A stretch of DNA of 64,000 nt from Halorussus gelatinilyticus (GTDB lineage Archaea > Halobacteriota > Halobacteria > Halobacteriales > Haladaptataceae): assembly GCF_023238445.1 (NCBI RefSeq), contig NZ_CP096658.1, positions 3,348,001-3,412,000 of the forward strand. The letters run 5' to 3'. Within the stretch, counting starts at the first letter, position 1; each line of letters begins with the position of its first letter. Positions 40,190 through 47,766 of the stretch are shown in pieces. The position numbers and the translations under genes were made by a program. Below the pieces are notes generated by a model. That model worked only from the letters and a program-made list of their open reading frames with translations. It was not told the origin of the DNA and searched no databases.

Positions 40190-40894
40190 ATGTCACTCCA
40201 GCGGGCGCGGTTTCGCGGGGACTGTTCGACCCACGAGTTTCAGGAGGTGTTGAAACGGCTCAAGCACGACGGGTGCAATCTTCTCGTCACCGGTGCCGTC
40301 TCCGAGGACGTGACGGTCCAGGCGACACAGACGCTGCTCGGCGCACCGGACGCCGAGCGCAAACGGGTCATCGCTCTGGCCGACCCCAGCGCCGAGAGCG
40401 CCTACGAGCGACTCCCGCCGGGCGTCGAGTCCGACGACCCGGACGTGTGGATAATCGACCAAGACGCCTGCCAGCGCTCGGTCCCGAAAGCCGCCGAGAG
40501 CGCCACGGCGTCGCTCCCCTCCGAGGGGACCGACCGGAGCGCGCTCGGCCGACTGCGCGAGGAGGTCGTCGTCGCAATCGACTTCTTCGCGGACGCCGAC
40601 GGCGGACTCGACCCCTCGGAACTCCGCCTGTCGGTGTCGTCGCTCGGGCGCATGGCACACGAACACGACCCGGACCGAATCGCCCGATTCGTGCGCTCGG
40701 TCTCGGCGATGGTCAAAGGGGTACACGGGATGGCCCACTACCACCTCCCACGCCCGGACGACGACGAGGTGGTCGAACAGCTCGGACCGCTGTTCGACGC
40801 CCGCATCGAACTCCGGAAACGCGACGGTCTCCCGACCGAGCAGCGGTGGCACGTCCCCCAGCACGACCAGACGACCGAGTGGGTGCGCCTCTAA
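40190..40894 (+). CDS. DUF7504-type RecA-like protein, first gene of the CHAT operon
   Basis: A 234-residue soluble protein. CNLLVTGAVSEDVTVQATQTLLG (about 29-51) occupies the place of a RecA/KaiC P-loop but lacks the GKS/T of Walker A, so ATP hydrolysis is doubtful. VIALADPSAESAYERLPPG and DVWIIDQDACQRS follow the alternating strand-helix plan of the same fold. It matches a haloarchaeal family I recall as DUF7504. The CHAT gene starts eight bases after its stop, so the two are one operon. The C-terminus (WHVPQHDQTTEWVRL) is conserved-looking. Confidence 0.72.
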   Translation: MSLQRARFRGDCSTHEFQEVLKRLKHDGCNLLVTGAVSEDVTVQATQTLLGAPDAERKRVIALADPSAESAYERLPPGVESDDPDVWIIDQDACQRSVPKAAESATASLPSEGTDRSALGRLREEVVVAIDFFADADGGLDPSELRLSVSSLGRMAHEHDPDRIARFVRSVSAMVKGVHGMAHYHLPRPDDDEVVEQLGPLFDARIELRKRDGLPTEQRWHVPQHDQTTEWVRL

Positions 40895-40902
40895 GGTGAT
40901 TC

Positions 40903-43068
40903 ATGGACCCGACGTTCACGGTACGCACTGACTACACGGCCGTCGAGATAGCAGACCCCATCGAGAACGCCCGCTTCGAGCTCTACACCGCTTCGCCCGT
41001 CGAACCGTCGCCCGTCCCGACCGACGAGTTCTACTTCCCCGTCGATTCCGCGATAGCAGTCGAGAGCAGCGCCGTCGACGTGCCGAAACTCGCCAACGTC
41101 CTCGTCCGCACCCAGTCGGGCGAACTCGTCGCCGACAACGCCGACCACGCGGACCGGTCGCTCGACCACGGCGCGTACGTCCTCGAACTCAGTACCGCGC
41201 CGATGAAGCTCTACCTCTCGGTCGAGAGTTCGCTGGAGGTGCGCCACGGCGAGGCGACCGTCACCGTCGATTTCGGCGACGAGACGGTGGTCGGGGTCGG
41301 CGCGCGCTCGTTCCACGACCGGCCCGCCGGCACCGTCACGACCACGCCCGACCCAGTGGGCACGATGGACGCGGTGTCCCTGTTCGGGTCGGCACTCAAG
41401 ACGACCAGCCCCGAACGCTCGTTTCCGACGTTGCGGGGCCACCCGCCGCTCGTGGAGTTGGGCGACGAGTTCGACGCGCCCGAGGGCATCGCTCGTCCGG
41501 ACACCGGGGTCCGCCTCGAACTCCCGGCCGACTACCGGCACGTCTACCCCGCGGCGTCGCTGGCGTACTACCTCGGCGCGGAGGTGGTCCCGGCCGACCA
41601 CCCGAGGCTCGTCACGGACGCCGGCTTCGAGTACGACCTCGACGGGCCGCGGGGCTACGAAACGACCGTCGGGCGCGTCCTCCGCCAGACGTTCCTCTTC
41701 GACTGCGTGACCCGGACCGAGGGCTACTACGACGTTGACCTCCACGAGCGCGAGGCGGTCGAACCGGAGGTCGAACTGGACTTCGCGGCGCTCTACGACC
41801 GGCCGCTGGCCGAGCGACTCGACGCGTACCTCTCGGTGCCCTTCGAGTCGGTTGCCGACCACGTGCCCGACTGGAGCCTGACGACCGACGTGATGGCGAC
41901 TCCGAACAACGCCGAGGTGTTGCCGTTCGTCGCCGCCGACCTCGCGCTCGTCCGGTGTCCGAGCGACCCGACCGGCGCGTCGGTGAGTCCCACGCCGGAA
42001 CCGCTCGGCGAGTTCTTCCGGAACGACCCGGACGGCGACGCGGTCGCCGAGTCAGCGGTTGGCGCGAACAAGGCGACCGCCTTGTTCGCGCCGACCGCCC
42101 TAGGCGACGACTTCACCAGAAGCACGACCGACGAGAGCGGGTCCGCCGTCACGCAGGGCGAGATTTTCAACCCGGAACCGGTCGAGACGGTCGAACACGC
42201 GTGGATCGGCGAGGGGTTCCCGGTCGGCGCGAACAAGGCGACCGTCGAGTCCTATCGGCGGCGCGTCCGGCAGTCGGCTCCCGACAAGACCACCATCGAG
42301 ATTCACGTCGTCTGCAACGACGAACGCATGCAAGCGGAAGGCGTCGTCGAGGAGTTCTACGGCCCGCGGGAACTGCTCCAGTTCGACGTGTCGGTCCACA
42401 ACGAACTCACGACCGACGAACTCCGGGACCTGCTGGCCCAACCCGCCGACTTCCTCCACTACATCGGCCACGTGGACGGCGACGGGATGCGGTGTCCGGA
42501 CGGCCACTTGGACGCCCGGACGCTCTCGGAGGTGAACGTCAAGGCGTTCGTCCTCAACGCCTGCCGGTCGTACGCGCAGGGCGAGGCGCTGGTCGAAGCC
42601 GGAAGCTACGGCGGGGTCGTGACGCTCGCGGAGATCGCCAACAGCGTCGCCACCGACATCGGCCAGACGCTGGCGCGACTCCTCAACTGCGGGTTCCCGC
42701 TCCGGGTCGCGCTCGCGGTCGTGAAAGACGCCATCGGCCCGGCGTACCAGTACACGACGGTCGGCGATGGAAACCTGACGCTGTGTCAAAGCGAGAGCGG
42801 TTGTCCGCTCCATCTCAAAATCGAGCAGGTCTGCGAGGACGAGTTCGAAGCCAACGTTCGTGCGTACTCGTCTCCGGGGTACGAACTCGGTTCGATATAT
42901 TTCCCGATCATCGGGCAGAACTCGGTTCACCAACTCGTCTCCGCGGCGGACACGTCGCTCCGGGTTACGAGGTCCGAACTGGACGACTATTTCGAGCGTG
43001 AAGTTATGCCGGTCAATTACGAAGGGAATCTCTACTGGACCGACGAACTAGCCGGAGCGGACCTATAA
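40903..43068 (+). CDS. CHAT-domain (caspase-like) protein, copy 1
   Basis: A 721-residue protein. N-terminal beta-rich region (1-150), a conserved block GSALKTTSPERSFPTLRGHP near 165-185, a middle helical region, and a C-terminal CHAT caspase-like domain (about 450-640). The candidate dyad is His523 in FLHYIGHVDGDG and Cys554 in FVLNACRSYAQGEAL, 31 residues apart, with GGVVTLAEI after it. It has no signal peptide or helix for the membrane. It shares order and motifs with a second copy at 45.5 kb. CHAT proteases act in cell-death and CRISPR-linked systems; substrate here unknown. Confidence 0.82.
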   Translation: MDPTFTVRTDYTAVEIADPIENARFELYTASPVEPSPVPTDEFYFPVDSAIAVESSAVDVPKLANVLVRTQSGELVADNADHADRSLDHGAYVLELSTAPMKLYLSVESSLEVRHGEATVTVDFGDETVVGVGARSFHDRPAGTVTTTPDPVGTMDAVSLFGSALKTTSPERSFPTLRGHPPLVELGDEFDAPEGIARPDTGVRLELPADYRHVYPAASLAYYLGAEVVPADHPRLVTDAGFEYDLDGPRGYETTVGRVLRQTFLFDCVTRTEGYYDVDLHEREAVEPEVELDFAALYDRPLAERLDAYLSVPFESVADHVPDWSLTTDVMATPNNAEVLPFVAADLALVRCPSDPTGASVSPTPEPLGEFFRNDPDGDAVAESAVGANKATALFAPTALGDDFTRSTTDESGSAVTQGEIFNPEPVETVEHAWIGEGFPVGANKATVESYRRRVRQSAPDKTTIEIHVVCNDERMQAEGVVEEFYGPRELLQFDVSVHNELTTDELRDLLAQPADFLHYIGHVDGDGMRCPDGHLDARTLSEVNVKAFVLNACRSYAQGEALVEAGSYGGVVTLAEIANSVATDIGQTLARLLNCGFPLRVALAVVKDAIGPAYQYTTVGDGNLTLCQSESGCPLHLKIEQVCEDEFEANVRAYSSPGYELGSIYFPIIGQNSVHQLVSAADTSLRVTRSELDDYFEREVMPVNYEGNLYWTDELAGADL
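42056..42097. repeat. Near-perfect palindrome inside CHAT copy 1
   Basis: GGCGCGAACAAGGCG (42061-42075) and CGCCTTGTTCGCGCC (42078-42092) are exact complements around two bases; with one mismatch the stem reaches 20 bp. A direct copy of the left arm lies at 42221-42244, where it encodes PVGANKAT, a segment that is matched in the paralogue (PVDASKAT). The palindrome itself encodes VGANKATALFAPTAL, which the paralogue lacks. Confidence 0.9.
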
Positions 43069-43069
43069 C

Positions 43070-43216
43070 CTACGGTCCACTGTAGGCGCTTGCACCGTTC
43101 GCGGCCACGTTCCCGGCCTGCATCAACAGCAAGCAGACCGTGAATAGTGCGCCCATCGTTCGCGGGTGCGATTCGAGGAACTCCGCCATCCGTTTCCGCG
43201 TCGTAGTTTGTGCCAT
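43070..43216 (-). CDS. Small one-helix membrane protein, partner of CHAT copy 1 (DUF7503 type)
   Basis: A 48-residue protein ending in stop 43070-43072, two bases beyond the CHAT stop on the opposite strand. Basic start MAQTTTRKRMAEFLESHPRT, hydrophobic segment GALFTVCLLLMQAGNVAANG, tail ASAYSGP. The same plan, with the motif M-G-x-L-F-T-(x)-LLL-x-Q-A-G-N and end GP, recurs after CHAT copy 2. It looks like a family I recall as DUF7503. The hydrophobic stretch ending in Ala-x-Ala could be a signal peptide or an anchor. Confidence 0.75.
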   Translation of the reverse strand: MAQTTTRKRMAEFLESHPRTMGALFTVCLLLMQAGNVAANGASAYSGP

Positions 43217-43374
43217 GACCACTCTTCACAATGACGCCAGCATATTTCAATCTGTTTAAAGGATGCTAATAGGAAGATTCTTGAAATAGATTTCGAACAT
43301 TTATTTAAAATGCTCGATTTCCGAACGCCCGTCGGGGGGCAAGGATTTTGGCGGGGGAGTGAGAGCGAGCGCGT

Positions 43375-43680
43375 ATGACAAGTGGTTTCGACCTCGACCT
43401 CCAGACGGTCGAGCAGGAGATAGCGGACGGCGACGACGACACCGAGGGGACCGACCGGCGTATCGTCCTCGGCGAACTGGACGGGACGACCGACGAGCGC
43501 GAGTGGTTCGAGGTCATCGACCGCGGCAACGTCCTCGTCCTCGCGGTCGAAGGCGACCTCCCCGAGCTGGCGGCCGACCTCGCGCCGCGGGTGAAAGAAC
43601 GCGGCGGAAGTCTGATCCACTTCCGGAAGTTCCTCATCGTGACGCCCAACGACGTGAGCGTGGACACCGACCGACTCTGA
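43375..43680 (+). CDS. DUF5779-type conserved haloarchaeal protein
   Basis: A 101-residue acidic protein: FDLDLQTVEQEI, RRIVLGELDG, NVLVLAVEGDLPELAADLAP and HFRKFLIVTPNDVSVDTDRL. The pattern of short strands and helices matches a conserved haloarchaeal protein family known to me only as DUF5779. No catalytic residues stand out. AT-rich promoter sequence (CATTTATTTAAAATG) lies at about 43298-43312. Function unknown. Confidence 0.75.
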   Translation: MTSGFDLDLQTVEQEIADGDDDTEGTDRRIVLGELDGTTDEREWFEVIDRGNVLVLAVEGDLPELAADLAPRVKERGGSLIHFRKFLIVTPNDVSVDTDRL

Positions 43681-43929
43681 GCGACGGGCCCCGACACGAC
43701 GATTCGGCGTCGTAGCCAGCACCGCAACCGCGGGCCTCACGCTTCCCCAGCATTGGCGACCGCGGACGCGGCCGCCCTCGCGCGGTGAGCGAGTCGTCTC
43801 GCTGTGTTCAGCGAGACGACGTGCCCACGCGACCGATGGTCGAGTTCTCCTTTCGTCGCGAACGTCGAGGTCAGAGAGCGCGACCGATTCGTCCCGGACG
43901 GAGCCTCGAAACCGGCCGCGGAGCCACTG

Positions 43930-44607
43930 CTACTGGAACGTCAGGTAGTGACCATCCGGGTCGCGGACGCGGATCCCGCCGTCCACCTCGCCGACCGCGC
44001 AGGCCGCGTCGCGGACCGCGTCGGCTGCGGCCGCCGGGTCGTCGGCCGCGAACCCCACGTCGGCGTGGAGACCGCCGCGCGCGTCCGCGATGCCGAGGTG
44101 GGGCTCCCAGAGTTCCAAATCCACCGGCCCGCCGAGTCGGACGCGGCGTCGCTGGTCGCCGCGGTCCACGACCTCGAACCCGAGCGACCGGTAGAACGAT
44201 TCGGCGCGCGCGAGGTCCTCGACCTCCAACACGATTTCGAAGACGTCGGTGATGGCCGCTTCGCCGTCGCCGACGCCGCCGATTTCGACGCAGTTGCCGT
44301 CCGGGTCGTAGAAGTACAGCGACTTCGCGCCGCCGAAGTCGAACTCCGCGAGGTCGAACGACTCCGCGAGGCGGTCGTACCACTCGTCGTAGCGGTCGGG
44401 CGGCGTGGCGAACGCGTAATGGGTGTGGACTCCGCCGCGGGGGACCGTGCCCGGTTCCCGGAGAACGAGGTTCGCCGCGCCCGCGTCGAGGACGACTTCG
44501 CCGTCGCCCTCGCTGACCATCGACAGGTCGAGGTGCGTCGTGTAGAACTCGCGGGCGCGGTCGAGATACTTCGCTTCGAGCGCCAGCCAGCGCAACCCCG
44601 AGAGCAT
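43930..44607 (-). CDS. Glyoxalase/VOC family protein, two VOC domains
   Basis: A 225-residue protein with two vicinal-oxygen-chelate domains: about 1-112 (AKYLDRAREFYTTHLDL ... SLYFYDPDGNCVEIGG) and about 118-225 (LEVEDLARAESFYRSLGFEV ... IRVRDPDGHYLTFQ). HYAF and CVEI give one His/Glu metal set; DVGF and YLTF replace those ligands in the second, so one site is probably metal-free. Such proteins include glyoxalases and ring-cleavage dioxygenases; substrate unknown. Confidence 0.88.
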   Translation of the reverse strand: MLSGLRWLALEAKYLDRAREFYTTHLDLSMVSEGDGEVVLDAGAANLVLREPGTVPRGGVHTHYAFATPPDRYDEWYDRLAESFDLAEFDFGGAKSLYFYDPDGNCVEIGGVGDGEAAITDVFEIVLEVEDLARAESFYRSLGFEVVDRGDQRRRVRLGGPVDLELWEPHLGIADARGGLHADVGFAADDPAAAADAVRDAACAVGEVDGGIRVRDPDGHYLTFQ

Positions 44608-44733
44608 GGCTTCGTGGTACGCACGCCCGGCGCTTAAAGCCTCGCTGGCCGGACCGCGTAGCCGGACGGACGCCGCGATAGCCGACGCGACGCGTACAGG
44701 AGGGTTTTGGGGATTCGGTTCGTACGTCCGACC

Positions 44734-45411
44734 ATGCCGCTGAAGAAGTCACAGCCCGCGACGGAGTACGAGGAGATAGACCGGTGGGACGAGGGCGTCG
44801 GGTGGATCGCCCACCCTAACGAGACGATGTTGCGGGCCAGCCACGCGCTCGACACGGCGGCGGGCGTCTGGGTGGTGGACCCCGTGGACGCACAGGGCGT
44901 GGACGACCTGTTCGCGGAGTTCGGCGACGTGGCGGGCGTCGTCGTCCTGCTGAACCGCCACTACCGGGACGCCGACGAAATCGCCCGCCGTCACGACGTG
45001 CCGGTGTACGTCCCCGCGTGGTTCGACCGCGTGCCCGAGATGGCGGCCGACCTCCGACGCTTCGACACGACGCTACCGGACACCGACTACAGGCTGTTGA
45101 AGGTCACCGACACGTTCGGCTGGGAGGAGGCGGCCCTCTACGACGACGAAGCGGGGACGCTGGTCGTCTCAGAGAGCGTCGGCAACGCGCCCTACTTCAC
45201 GACTCCCGGCGAGCGTCTCGGCGTCCATCCGATGATGCGACTCACGCCGCCGTCGGCGCTGAAGGGGCTTCGGCCCGAGCGCGTGGTGGTCGGGCACGGA
45301 CGCGGTGCGCTGGACGACGCGACGCGTGCGCTCGACGACGCGCTCGGCGGCGCGCGACGGAAGTCGCCGAAACTCTTCGCCGAGAACCTGCGCATGGTGT
45401 TGCGTCGCTGA
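44734..45411 (+). CDS. MBL-fold-like hypothetical protein without metal motif
   Basis: A 225-residue protein starting at ATG 44734. GVWVVDPVDAQGVDDLFAEFG then VVVLLNRHYRDADEIARR and VPVYVPAWF recall the metallo-beta-lactamase fold, where NRHYRDAD takes the place of HxHxDH. Only one His remains, so hydrolysis is unlikely unless metal is bound differently. RPERVVVGHGRG near the end fits the fold. It lies just before CHAT copy 2 but has no obvious operon link (121 nt gap). Confidence 0.65.
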   Translation: MPLKKSQPATEYEEIDRWDEGVGWIAHPNETMLRASHALDTAAGVWVVDPVDAQGVDDLFAEFGDVAGVVVLLNRHYRDADEIARRHDVPVYVPAWFDRVPEMAADLRRFDTTLPDTDYRLLKVTDTFGWEEAALYDDEAGTLVVSESVGNAPYFTTPGERLGVHPMMRLTPPSALKGLRPERVVVGHGRGALDDATRALDDALGGARRKSPKLFAENLRMVLRR

Positions 45412-45442
45412 CCGGAGCGGTTTCCGAGTGACCGATTTAGCC

Positions 45443-45450
45443 GATAAATT
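45443..45450 (+). promoter_or_regulatory. TATA-like box for CHAT copy 2
   Basis: GATAAATT about 33 nt before the ATG of the 18-codon frame at 45480, so transcription should begin just before that small frame, not at the CHAT start. Confidence 0.45.
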
Positions 45451-45479
45451 TTTGCGAGTTCCCCTCTAGTGTCTAAAAC

Positions 45480-45536
45480 ATGCGTTCTCTCCGAGGGGAA
45501 AAGCCGAGTGAGAAAATACAGGGGGTGTGGCCGTGA
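45480..45536 (+). CDS. Short upstream frame (18 codons) overlapping CHAT copy 2
   Basis: ATG 45480 opens MRSLRGEKPSEKIQGVWP, whose TGA shares four bases (GTGA) with the GTG 45533 of the CHAT gene. The promoter spacing puts it first on the mRNA. It may couple or tune CHAT translation, or be the remnant of a lost upstream gene such as a second DUF7504. No homology evidence. Confidence 0.35.
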   Translation: MRSLRGEKPSEKIQGVWP

Positions 45537-47629
45537 CACTGTCGTTCGAGGCCGCACCGGAGCGGACCGGCCTCGAAATCCGGGACCGAATCGAACGCCG
45601 AACCTACACCATCGGAACGTCGGAGTCGGTCTCGCCGACGCCGACGGACGCCGACGAGTTTCGGTTCCCGGTAGACGACGCGGTCGCTCTCACGACCGAG
45701 ACGGTCACGCTTCCGACGTTCGTCGCCGCTTACGTCCGGGACGAAGCGGGTCGGATGCTGCTCGAAGTCGGGAGCGAGACCGACCGTCGGCTTCCGGCGG
45801 GACGCTACAGCGTCGAGTTGTGCGCGCCGATGAAACTCTACCTCGCCGTCGAGGGACCGATGAGAGTGACGGCGACCGCCGACGGGATTCGGTTCGAATT
45901 CGACTCGGCGACGACGGTCGGGGTCGGTGCGCGCTCTCACCACGAGCGTCCGGCCGCGACCGTCACGACGACCGAGGACCCCCGCGACGTGATGGCCGCG
46001 CTCTCGACGCTCGGGTCGGCGCTCAAGACGACCAGCCCCGAGCGGAGCTTTCCGACGTTGCGGGGCCACCCGCCGCTCGTGGAGTTGGGCGACGAGCTGT
46101 CGATTCCCGACGGTCTCGACGTGCCGGAGACCGGCGTCCGAATCGAGCTGCCGCCCGAGCGCGGCCGGGCCTACGTAGCCGCGCCACTGGCGTTCTACCT
46201 CGGCGCGGAGTTGGTGCCCGTCGAGGACGCGAGCGCGCCCCGCATCGTCGCCGACGCGAACGCCTCCTCGGAGACGTTCGCGTACGACCTCGACGGACCG
46301 AAGGGGTTCGAGGAGGAAGTCGCCAGAGTCCTCAAGCAGACGTTCCTGCTCGACTGCGTGACCCGGACGGAGGGCTACTACCCCGTCCAGCTCCACGAGC
46401 GCGAGGAAATCGAATCGGAGGTCGGACTCGACTTCGCGGCCCTCTACGACCGGTCGCTCGCCGAGCGGTTGGAAGCGTACCTCTCGGTCCCCTTCGAGGT
46501 GGTCGAGGACCAGATTCCGACGTGGAAACTGACGACGCACGTCGAACCGACGCCCGAGAACGTCGCTACCGTGCCGTTTCTGGTGGACGACCTCGCGGTC
46601 ATCCGGACGCCCGCGGCCCGACGGACGACCCGGCGCGCGACCGCCACGTCCGGGGAACTCGTCCGCGACGGCGACTTCACGCGGAGTTCCTCGGGGTCGA
46701 GCGACGCGCGTCCGGTGGTCGAACCCGAGGGAACCGACTCGGTCGAGCAGGCGTGGATCGGCGACCGCGCGCCGGTGGACGCCAGCAAGGCGACCCCGAC
46801 CGCGTTCCGGAATCGGTTGAAGCAGGAGACCGAGGCCGAGGACATCGAGATTTCGGTCGTCTGCAACGACACCGCCATGGACGAGGAGCGCGACATCGCC
46901 GCGGAGGTGTACGGGTCGCGCGAGAACCTGCCGTTCGACGTGACCGTCCACCGCGACCTGCGGACCGACGAACTCCGCGAGGTGTTGGCCGAGGAGACGG
47001 CGTTCCTCCACTACATCGGCCACATCGACGGTTCGGGGTTCGAGTGCGCGGACGGGCACCTCGACGCCGCGGAGTTGGACTCGGTGGGTGCGGAGGCGTT
47101 CGTGCTGAACGCCTGTCAGTCCTACGAGCAGGGGATGGAACTCATCGACGCCGGGAGCGTCGGCGGCGTCGTGACGTTGAGCGACGTAATCAACAGTGGT
47201 GCGGTCCGGGTCGGCAAGACGATGGTCCGCCTGCTGAACCGCGGGTTCCCGCTCCGGGCCGCGCTCGCTATCGCCCGAGACCGGAGCATCGTCGGCGACC
47301 AGTACATCGTCGTCGGCGACGGGAACGTCGACGTGGTCCAGACCGAGAGCAACGTGGCGATGCTCTGCGTCGTCGAGACCGGCGACGACGAGGCGACCGA
47401 CGGGTTCGACGTGACCCTCAAGAGCTATCCGTCGGGGCAGGGCGGAATGGGTGGCTTCTTTGCGTCTCAGTTCGGCGATTCCGATCGCTATCATTTGACC
47501 TCCGGAAAACACGGACCCTACTCGATGACGAAGGAGGAACTCCGGAAGACGCTGGCGCTGGAGAACATTCCGATGGAAGTGGACGGCGAATTCACCTGGA
47601 GTAACGAATTCGACGTGGACAGACTCTAA
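45533..47629 (+). CDS. CHAT-domain (caspase-like) protein, copy 2
   Basis: A 698-residue paralogue of the protein at 40.9 kb, with the same order of parts. The block GSALKTTSPERSFPTLRGHP is identical in both. CHAT domain: His497 in FLHYIGHIDGSG and Cys528 in FVLNACQSYEQGMEL, again 31 apart, followed by GGVVTLSDV. GTG 45533 is chosen because it overlaps the upstream short frame as GTGA; GTG 45527 would add two residues. A convergent small membrane protein follows, as for copy 1. There is no DUF7504 gene next to it. Confidence 0.82.
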   Translation: MTLSFEAAPERTGLEIRDRIERRTYTIGTSESVSPTPTDADEFRFPVDDAVALTTETVTLPTFVAAYVRDEAGRMLLEVGSETDRRLPAGRYSVELCAPMKLYLAVEGPMRVTATADGIRFEFDSATTVGVGARSHHERPAATVTTTEDPRDVMAALSTLGSALKTTSPERSFPTLRGHPPLVELGDELSIPDGLDVPETGVRIELPPERGRAYVAAPLAFYLGAELVPVEDASAPRIVADANASSETFAYDLDGPKGFEEEVARVLKQTFLLDCVTRTEGYYPVQLHEREEIESEVGLDFAALYDRSLAERLEAYLSVPFEVVEDQIPTWKLTTHVEPTPENVATVPFLVDDLAVIRTPAARRTTRRATATSGELVRDGDFTRSSSGSSDARPVVEPEGTDSVEQAWIGDRAPVDASKATPTAFRNRLKQETEAEDIEISVVCNDTAMDEERDIAAEVYGSRENLPFDVTVHRDLRTDELREVLAEETAFLHYIGHIDGSGFECADGHLDAAELDSVGAEAFVLNACQSYEQGMELIDAGSVGGVVTLSDVINSGAVRVGKTMVRLLNRGFPLRAALAIARDRSIVGDQYIVVGDGNVDVVQTESNVAMLCVVETGDDEATDGFDVTLKSYPSGQGGMGGFFASQFGDSDRYHLTSGKHGPYSMTKEELRKTLALENIPMEVDGEFTWSNEFDVDRL

Positions 47630-47631
47630 TT

Positions 47632-47766
47632 CTACGGTCCGTAGCAGGCCCTCGCAACTCCTGCCGATGCGTTTCCGGCCTGCGTCAGCAGCAGTAGCAT
47701 CGTGAACAGGACACCCATTTTCCGGGGATTCTCTGCGAGGTACGTAGTGAGCTTCGATTCCGACAT
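47632..47766 (-). CDS. Small one-helix membrane protein, partner of CHAT copy 2 (DUF7503 type)
   Basis: A 44-residue protein, stop at 47632-47634, two bases past the CHAT stop and convergent with it. Start MSESKLTTYLAENPRKMGVL, hydrophobic FTMLLLLTQAGNASAG, end VARACYGP. Clear homologue of the 48-residue protein at 43.1 kb: same helix position, same LLLL-x-Q-A-G-N motif and GP end, but with a Cys in the tail. An AT-rich stretch (TATAAAATATTCTATA region, 47786-47815) upstream may hold its promoter. Confidence 0.75.
   Translation of the reverse strand: MSESKLTTYLAENPRKMGVLFTMLLLLTQAGNASAGVARACYGP

Follow-up and report, generated by a model that had tools for sequence, protein, structure and literature searches.

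Two CHAT-DUF7503 modules in a stretch of Halorussus gelatinilyticus DNA

The window analysed here is a 64,000-nucleotide stretch of the Halorussus gelatinilyticus genome (contig NZ_CP096658.1, positions 3,348,001 to 3,412,000) that contains two genes for CHAT-like proteases, each meeting tail to tail a gene for a predicted one-helix membrane protein of the Pfam family DUF7503. An original prediction, made from the DNA alone, had described these genes as a duplicated protease module with a membrane partner. Their features, in window coordinates, are as follows.

40190..40894, plus strand: DUF7504 protein, 234 residues (Pfam PF24336, E 1e-54, 186.2 bits)
40903..43068, plus strand: CHAT-like protease copy 1, 721 residues
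42010..42024, plus strand: linker motif EFFRN, copy 1 residues 370-374, first [DE]FxR site
42109..42123, plus strand: linker motif DFTRS, copy 1 residues 403-407, candidate self-cleavage site in a stretch with a predicted local distance difference test score (pLDDT) < 50
42319..42321, plus strand: Asp473 of copy 1, candidate P1-Arg-binding residue
42469..42471, plus strand: catalytic His523 of copy 1 (by conservation)
42562..42564, plus strand: catalytic Cys554 of copy 1 (by conservation)
43070..43216, minus strand: DUF7503 one-helix protein 1, 48 residues from ATG (Pfam PF24335, E 2e-21, 75.7 bits)
43160..43168, minus strand: membrane-face His-Pro-Arg of DUF7503 protein 1, a candidate cleavage site or pseudosubstrate
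45527..47629, plus strand: CHAT-like protease copy 2, 700 residues, DUF7504 not adjoining
46673..46687, plus strand: linker motif DFTRS, copy 2 residues 383-387
47021..47023, plus strand: catalytic His499 of copy 2 (by conservation)
47114..47116, plus strand: catalytic Cys530 of copy 2 (by conservation)
47632..47766, minus strand: DUF7503 one-helix protein 2, 44 residues (Pfam PF24335, E 1e-19, 70.2 bits)
47719..47730, minus strand: Glu-Asn-Pro-Arg motif of DUF7503 protein 2, fits ExxR

Copy 1 starts 8 bases past the DUF7504 gene, an operon arrangement that had been correctly recognised. The predicted dyad of copy 1 was exact, and the spacing of 31 residues between His and Cys is shared by both copies, although the copy 2 residues become His499 and Cys530 when numbered from the GTG at 45527 (a GTG two codons later yields the predicted His497/Cys528). 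Both small genes lie convergent to their CHAT gene, but the predicted distance of two bases between stops applies to copy 2 only, as the gap at copy 1 is 1 base. The homology proposed for these 44-48-residue one-helix proteins was borne out, both being DUF7503 members that exceed the profile cut-off of 27 and share 47% identity.

The notion of a duplicated module has to be amended, since seven CHAT genes were found in the genome. The two window CHAT proteins are 47% identical over their full length; they are old paralogs rather than a recent tandem copy, the nearest relative of each (76% and 77%) being a separate orthologue from other Halorussus. Apparently unrelated genes lie between both modules:

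43375-43680: DUF5779 gene
at 43930, minus strand: glyoxalase-like gene
at 44707: open reading frame (ORF)

Conserved pairing of CHAT and DUF7503 genes

All seven CHAT paralogs of H. gelatinilyticus are full-length, and at the stop codon of six of them there is a one-helix ORF in convergent orientation, two of these ORFs having been missed by the Pfam profile and caught by our own-built profile and one found by inspection only. A scan of 84,980 species genomes produced 426 relatives, and the best 80 loci of the 426, all haloarchaeal, were kept. A DUF7503-like ORF was present at 74 of these 80 named-genome CHAT loci and was convergent in every case, the commonest gaps being -4 (23), 0 (22), 2 (8) and 1 (5) bases. 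Additionally, a separate sample of 40 genomes of the order was searched with Pfam's own DUF7503 profile; all 39 DUF7503 genes detected, distributed over 28 of the 40 genomes, faced a CHAT gene convergently, and DUF7503 was likewise missing from the ten genomes that lack CHAT. No DUF7503 was found in the genomes sampled outside the order, and the laboratory species Haloferax volcanii gave a DUF7503 match in the control-genome search. The neighbourhood survey therefore found the genes together rather than mostly apart, and as the same convergent layout recurs in most haloarchaeal genomes sampled, a chance arrangement is excluded. The small ORFs are considered protein-coding because their ratio of non-synonymous to synonymous changes (pN/pS) was 0.25-0.51 and because their terminal Gly-Pro codons differ at third positions.

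The distances between DUF7503 proteins in 14 multi-pair genomes tracked those of their own CHAT proteins (rho 0.59; swaps within the same genome averaged 0.20), and none of 1,999 partner swaps within genomes reached this value. Overall, these sequence comparisons indicate that protease and DUF7503 are inherited and evolving as one unit, in agreement with the proposal that the small proteins belong to the system. That two unrelated conserved genes simply share a common 3' end would be compatible with the stable synteny around the pair within some genera, but is very improbable considering that the pairing is kept by multiple paralogs within a single genome, by plasmid-borne copies and across genera whose flanking genes differ, as well as the outcome of the swap test and the 39 of 39 convergent genes.

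The unrooted CHAT tree contained a clade of 22 members mostly without a partner and a larger group that is nearly all partnered. The chromosomal neighbours of CHAT are stable in two groups, Haloferax/Halobellus on the one hand and Halorubrum with its relatives on the other, and Halorussus and Haladaptatus carry many CHAT copies, some of them plasmid-borne. DUF7504 was the only widespread recurring neighbour of CHAT loci. At L043 and L047 (Haladaptatus), two CHAT genes lie in tandem and lack a DUF7503 partner, and the public records for L173 and L168 omit the convergent DUF7503 gene from their gene tables.

Predicted fold and catalytic residues of the protease

An AlphaFold model of copy 1, built with 46 relatives, reached a pLDDT of 86.7 and a predicted template modelling score (pTM) of 0.87, with values below 50 only at residues 362-418. 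The modelled layout consists of an N-terminal beta domain, a gingipain/separase-like middle, a disordered linker, a caspase-fold domain and a C-terminal beta domain. Structural matches of the second half of the protein included gingipain R (RgpB; Z 20.9), SAVED-CHAT (18.3), separase (15.5), Craspase TPR-CHAT (14.4) and caspases (about 12). Since the RgpB and separase alignments start near residue 323-333 of copy 1, the region before the linker appears to be partly shared architecture. A HEAT/TPR region is not in the model, and residues 1-135 are almost entirely beta strands. The structure prediction that had been proposed as a check thus returned a caspase-like fold around the His and Cys, and by this model the protease domain belongs to clan CD.

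The His-Cys dyad was intact in all 84 partnered CHATs and in 28 of 33 unpartnered CHATs, so that all five dyad-less proteins (L159, L160, L161, L162 and L167) are without a DUF7503 partner. Both window proteins scored below the gathering cut-off of 24 for Pfam CHAT (PF12770; 15.4 and 15.0 bits), for which reason we refer to them as CHAT-like, and 16 of the 46 relatives matched this family at E <= 0.1 (best 2e-5). There was no match at E <= 0.1 in a PDB sequence-profile search, nor any in an NCBIfam scan or a search of a phage collection.

Linker motifs and predicted specificity

The linker between the two conserved halves of the protease is hypervariable and disordered, and yet F[TVL]R[SG] occurs in the linkers of 56 of 84 partnered CHATs, compared with 0.5 in shuffled linkers and 3 of 33 unpartnered CHATs. 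Asp or Glu precedes this motif at 45 of the 56 sites, a [DEN]FxR-type motif is present in 68 of 80 paired CHATs, and [DE]xxR was observed 127 times in linkers against an expected 51 +/- 6. Human separase cuts itself at ExxR motifs within a disordered insert, and its substrate sites follow [D/E/S]-hydrophobic-ExxR, with one DxxR site also known (PMC12609080). By analogy, the [DE]FxR-type linker motifs are probably self-cleavage sites of a proenzyme.

The copy 1 linker (42061-42092 and about 42225-42243) also carries a perfect 15-base inverted repeat, GGCGCGAACAAGGCG / CGCCTTGTTCGCGCC, with a 2-base loop. The left half of this repeat also codes for the conserved VGANKAT motif further down, and the insertion bearing it is not present in the closest relatives.

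In gingipain, the Asp163 that binds P1-Arg comes after strand b1, where helix a1 begins, as does Arg64 in caspase-3 (PMC4626109). Judged by secondary structure, Asp473 has the equivalent place in our model, between strand b1 (464-471) and helix a1 (474-486), and 83 of the 84 partnered CHATs carry Asp or Glu there. Position 577, which follows a later strand, is Glu or Asp in 70 of 84 and is a plausible second acid of the P1 pocket on the basis of its conservation. Because acidic 473 matches the position of gingipain Asp163 and 577 is also acidic, a basic P1 specificity is indicated, and judging from conservation and secondary structure the protease most likely cuts after Arg (or Lys).

Comparison with known systems

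The best structural match, RgpB, covers 238 residues including the protease domain and part of the region before it, and its Arg specificity parallels the Arg/Lys specificity predicted for the haloarchaeal enzyme; RgpB is nevertheless a secreted bacterial protease with 11% identity. Like separase, the haloarchaeal protein has a caspase-fold domain preceded by a related one, ExxR/DxxR-type motifs in a disordered region (in the haloarchaeal linker, candidate cleavage sites) and an acidic P1-Arg pocket (predicted here). The two differ in that the haloarchaeal protease has an N-terminal beta domain instead of HEAT/TPR and a 44-residue one-helix protein as its partner rather than cohesin or securin, and identity in the structural alignment is about 12%. 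With SAVED-CHAT of type III CRISPR, the common element is a caspase domain of CHAT type (168 residues, Z 18.3), whereas the haloarchaeal protease lacks a SAVED domain and has another partner.

In bacterial gasdermin-protease pairs, a protease switches on a membrane protein. The idea of a protease activating a membrane protein (mentioned in PMC9729208) would also apply to the proposed haloarchaeal module, but DUF7503 consists of one helix and lacks the gasdermin fold. The Craspase TPR-CHAT protein Csx29, together with Csx30, is similar in having a caspase fold of CHAT type (Z 14.4) and a protein partner of its own; in contrast, the modelled haloarchaeal protease has no TPR, and neither CRISPR nor Cas7-11 is among the neighbours of its loci. 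Csx29 has a Lys at the place of the P1-Arg-binding Asp2151 of separase (PMC9729208), and because of this replacement its specificity differs.

The predicted membrane protein DUF7503

DUF7503 proteins are 44-50 residues long and follow a common pattern that comprises a variable N-terminus, [YF]Lx[EQ][HN]P[RK]MxG, VLFTxLLLL[ST]QAG, AAA, 7-9 variable residues and Gly-Pro. The Pro of [HN]P[RK] is found in 80 of 80 sequences and the Arg/Lys in 78 of 80, the residue before His/Asn is Glu, Gln or Asp in 58 of 80, and the distance from this motif to the C-terminus is 32 residues in 67 of 79. As positive charges lie on the N-terminal side and the tail is almost uncharged, the orientation is likely N-in. 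The region upstream of DUF7503 genes is about 70-75% AT.

This conserved Pro-Arg/Lys, predicted to lie on the cytosolic side, can be interpreted in more than one way. Our preferred interpretation, held tentatively and at somewhat less than an even chance, is that the CHAT-like protein is an Arg/Lys-specific, self-processing protease and DUF7503 its substrate or pseudosubstrate. Alternatively, DUF7503 may remain uncut and act as a membrane tether and securin-like pseudosubstrate inhibitor, with the protease freed by a signal through DUF7504. The invariant Pro-Arg/Lys facing the cytosol under the positive-inside rule, the covariation of the partners and the architecture of DUF7503 (one helix, a short N-terminal part and no further domain) are all consistent with this, as is the fact that securin acts on separase through a pseudosubstrate motif (PMC6858450). 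A substrate would show the same motif equally, and pseudosubstrates often lose the scissile P1 that 78 of 80 DUF7503 proteins keep, so that we regard a pure tether and inhibitor as unlikely.

A second alternative is that DUF7503 is the precursor of a secreted peptide, with a signal peptide, an AxA-like site and a released peptide of 8-9 residues mostly ending in Gly-Pro that is sensed or processed via CHAT. It would account for a short, moderately hydrophobic segment followed by NAAA/VAA and for a tail that is fixed in length (67 of 79), variable, almost uncharged and ended by Gly-Pro. This interpretation is improbable: the CHAT sequence read has no export signal or transmembrane helix, the cytosolic-side [HN]P[RK]MxG is better conserved than the tail, Natrialbaceae lack the Gly-Pro and no transporter or receptor gene recurs near CHAT loci. 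A Gly-Pro end was present in 25 of 29 proteins in a sample not selected for it; we rejected it as a universal feature on this count and because Natrialbaceae proteins end two or three residues earlier, as seen on the plasmids of L168, L169, L170 and L172.

Convergent, nearly touching stops and an AT-rich upstream region of DUF7503's own also suggest a probable antisense overlap between the 3' ends of the CHAT and DUF7503 transcripts. The pair could on this basis be toxin-antitoxin-like, DUF7503 being a membrane toxin held down by the antisense CHAT 3' end and its protein removed by CHAT. Type I toxin-antitoxin systems pair a small hydrophobic toxin with an overlapping antisense RNA; here the protein is small and hydrophobic and the gene ends overlap, and the one-helix DUF7503, its conserved tail-to-tail overlap and its AT-rich upstream region all agree with such a role. 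Strictly kept catalytic residues would be needless for antisense control, chromosomal neighbourhoods are stable within genera and, unlike mobile toxin genes, DUF7503 was never seen without CHAT in 40 genomes; we consider this explanation slightly less probable still than a peptide precursor.

Several observations weigh against the substrate or pseudosubstrate interpretation that we prefer. The fit of the DUF7503 site to ExxR is partial, since P2 is Pro, P1' is Met and P4 is acidic in only about half. Its P4 residue, moreover, showed no covariation with the linker motif (Fisher p = 1.0), and the Arg/Lys may simply supply the positive-inside charge that a membrane helix has. Cleavage leaves the conserved Gly-Pro at the C-terminus without explanation, and at L078, L143, L144 and L148 the convergent ORF has no helix and yet keeps its Gly-Pro end. 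The strict linker motif is not present in 28 of 84 partnered CHATs, the mapping of the S1-pocket residues depends on secondary-structure position, and cleavage of linker and partner is a prediction from sequence. Among the helix-less ORFs, those of L143, L144 and L148 end in KR(V/I)STY(G/R)GP, and that of L078 has a duplicated ADGNGGAVSGP tail.

The DUF7504 first gene

The first gene of the copy 1 module had been called RecA-like, which holds for its predicted fold. Its AlphaFold model (pLDDT 88.5) aligned with KaiC at Z 15.6 (root-mean-square deviation 2.9, 178 aligned residues), and its profile score of 186.2 bits is far above the cut-off of 27. The model points to a KaiC/RecA fold with a degenerate P-loop, but Walker A (GxxxxGK[ST]) was found in none of 39 CHAT-adjacent DUF7504 members, for which reason DUF7504 is unlikely to be an active ATPase. 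It is moreover optional, standing next to CHAT at about half of loci and at four of the seven in H. gelatinilyticus. In two Natrialbaceae plasmids (L169 and L172) a HalOD1-DUF7504 fusion gene lies directly before CHAT, and because of these fusions a signalling role for DUF7504 fits. At least one DUF7504 member elsewhere in a genome (L018) has a P-loop-like GPPMTGKR.

Proposed mechanism and significance

We propose a module of two genes, frequently joined by a third, in which the large protein would be a cytosolic cysteine protease of caspase/separase/gingipain fold, its fold being predicted, its His and Cys conserved and its activity putative. P1-Arg would be held by the Asp/Glu after strand b1, as by gingipain Asp163 and MALT1 Asp365, at the place where caspase-3 has Arg64. 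The proenzyme would cleave itself in the disordered linker after the Arg of [DE]F[TV]R[SG] and at [DE]FxR, like separase at its ExxR sites, and DUF7503 would present its invariant P-[RK] to the protease at the membrane face, as substrate or pseudosubstrate. A cut at P-[RK] would detach the N-terminal portion, so that a bare hydrophobic peptide stayed behind in the membrane, with the consequence that the membrane may be altered or a tethered protease released, and the KaiC-like DUF7504 without Walker A could couple the protease to a signal. Judged from its motifs, the protease probably cuts both itself and its small partner. The most complete version of this scheme, a haloarchaeal separase-like signalling protease that is Arg-specific, processes itself at DxxR/ExxR and, under control of a KaiC-like pseudo-ATPase, cuts a 44-residue membrane peptide at Pro-Arg/Lys to produce a membrane-active effector, is possible but doubtful.

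A role in cell death or defence, as originally suggested, gained no support; PADLOC models matched none of the five window proteins and no defence gene recurred near the loci. Given the stable chromosomal neighbours and this lack of recurring defence genes, a stress or cell-cycle role fits at least as well as an antiviral one.

In summary, two Pfam families listed without an assigned function (DUF7503, PF24335; DUF7504, PF24336) and a protease that RefSeq mostly labels 'hypothetical protein' are joined in one module in most haloarchaeal genomes sampled. Our literature search, which covered 5.39 million papers, found neither the names DUF7503 and DUF7504 nor a paper on a CHAT domain in haloarchaea. 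H. volcanii has been reported to show caspase-like activity, its domain of life being described as having no clear homologues of caspases (PMC3615174), and the CHAT-like family provides concrete caspase-fold candidates for haloarchaea. An Arg/Lys specificity, as predicted here, is however at odds with the activity recorded in that species, which was directed at Asp (PMC3615174). Should cleavage occur at the linker and partner sites, the module would represent an archaeal protease switch with separase-like logic.

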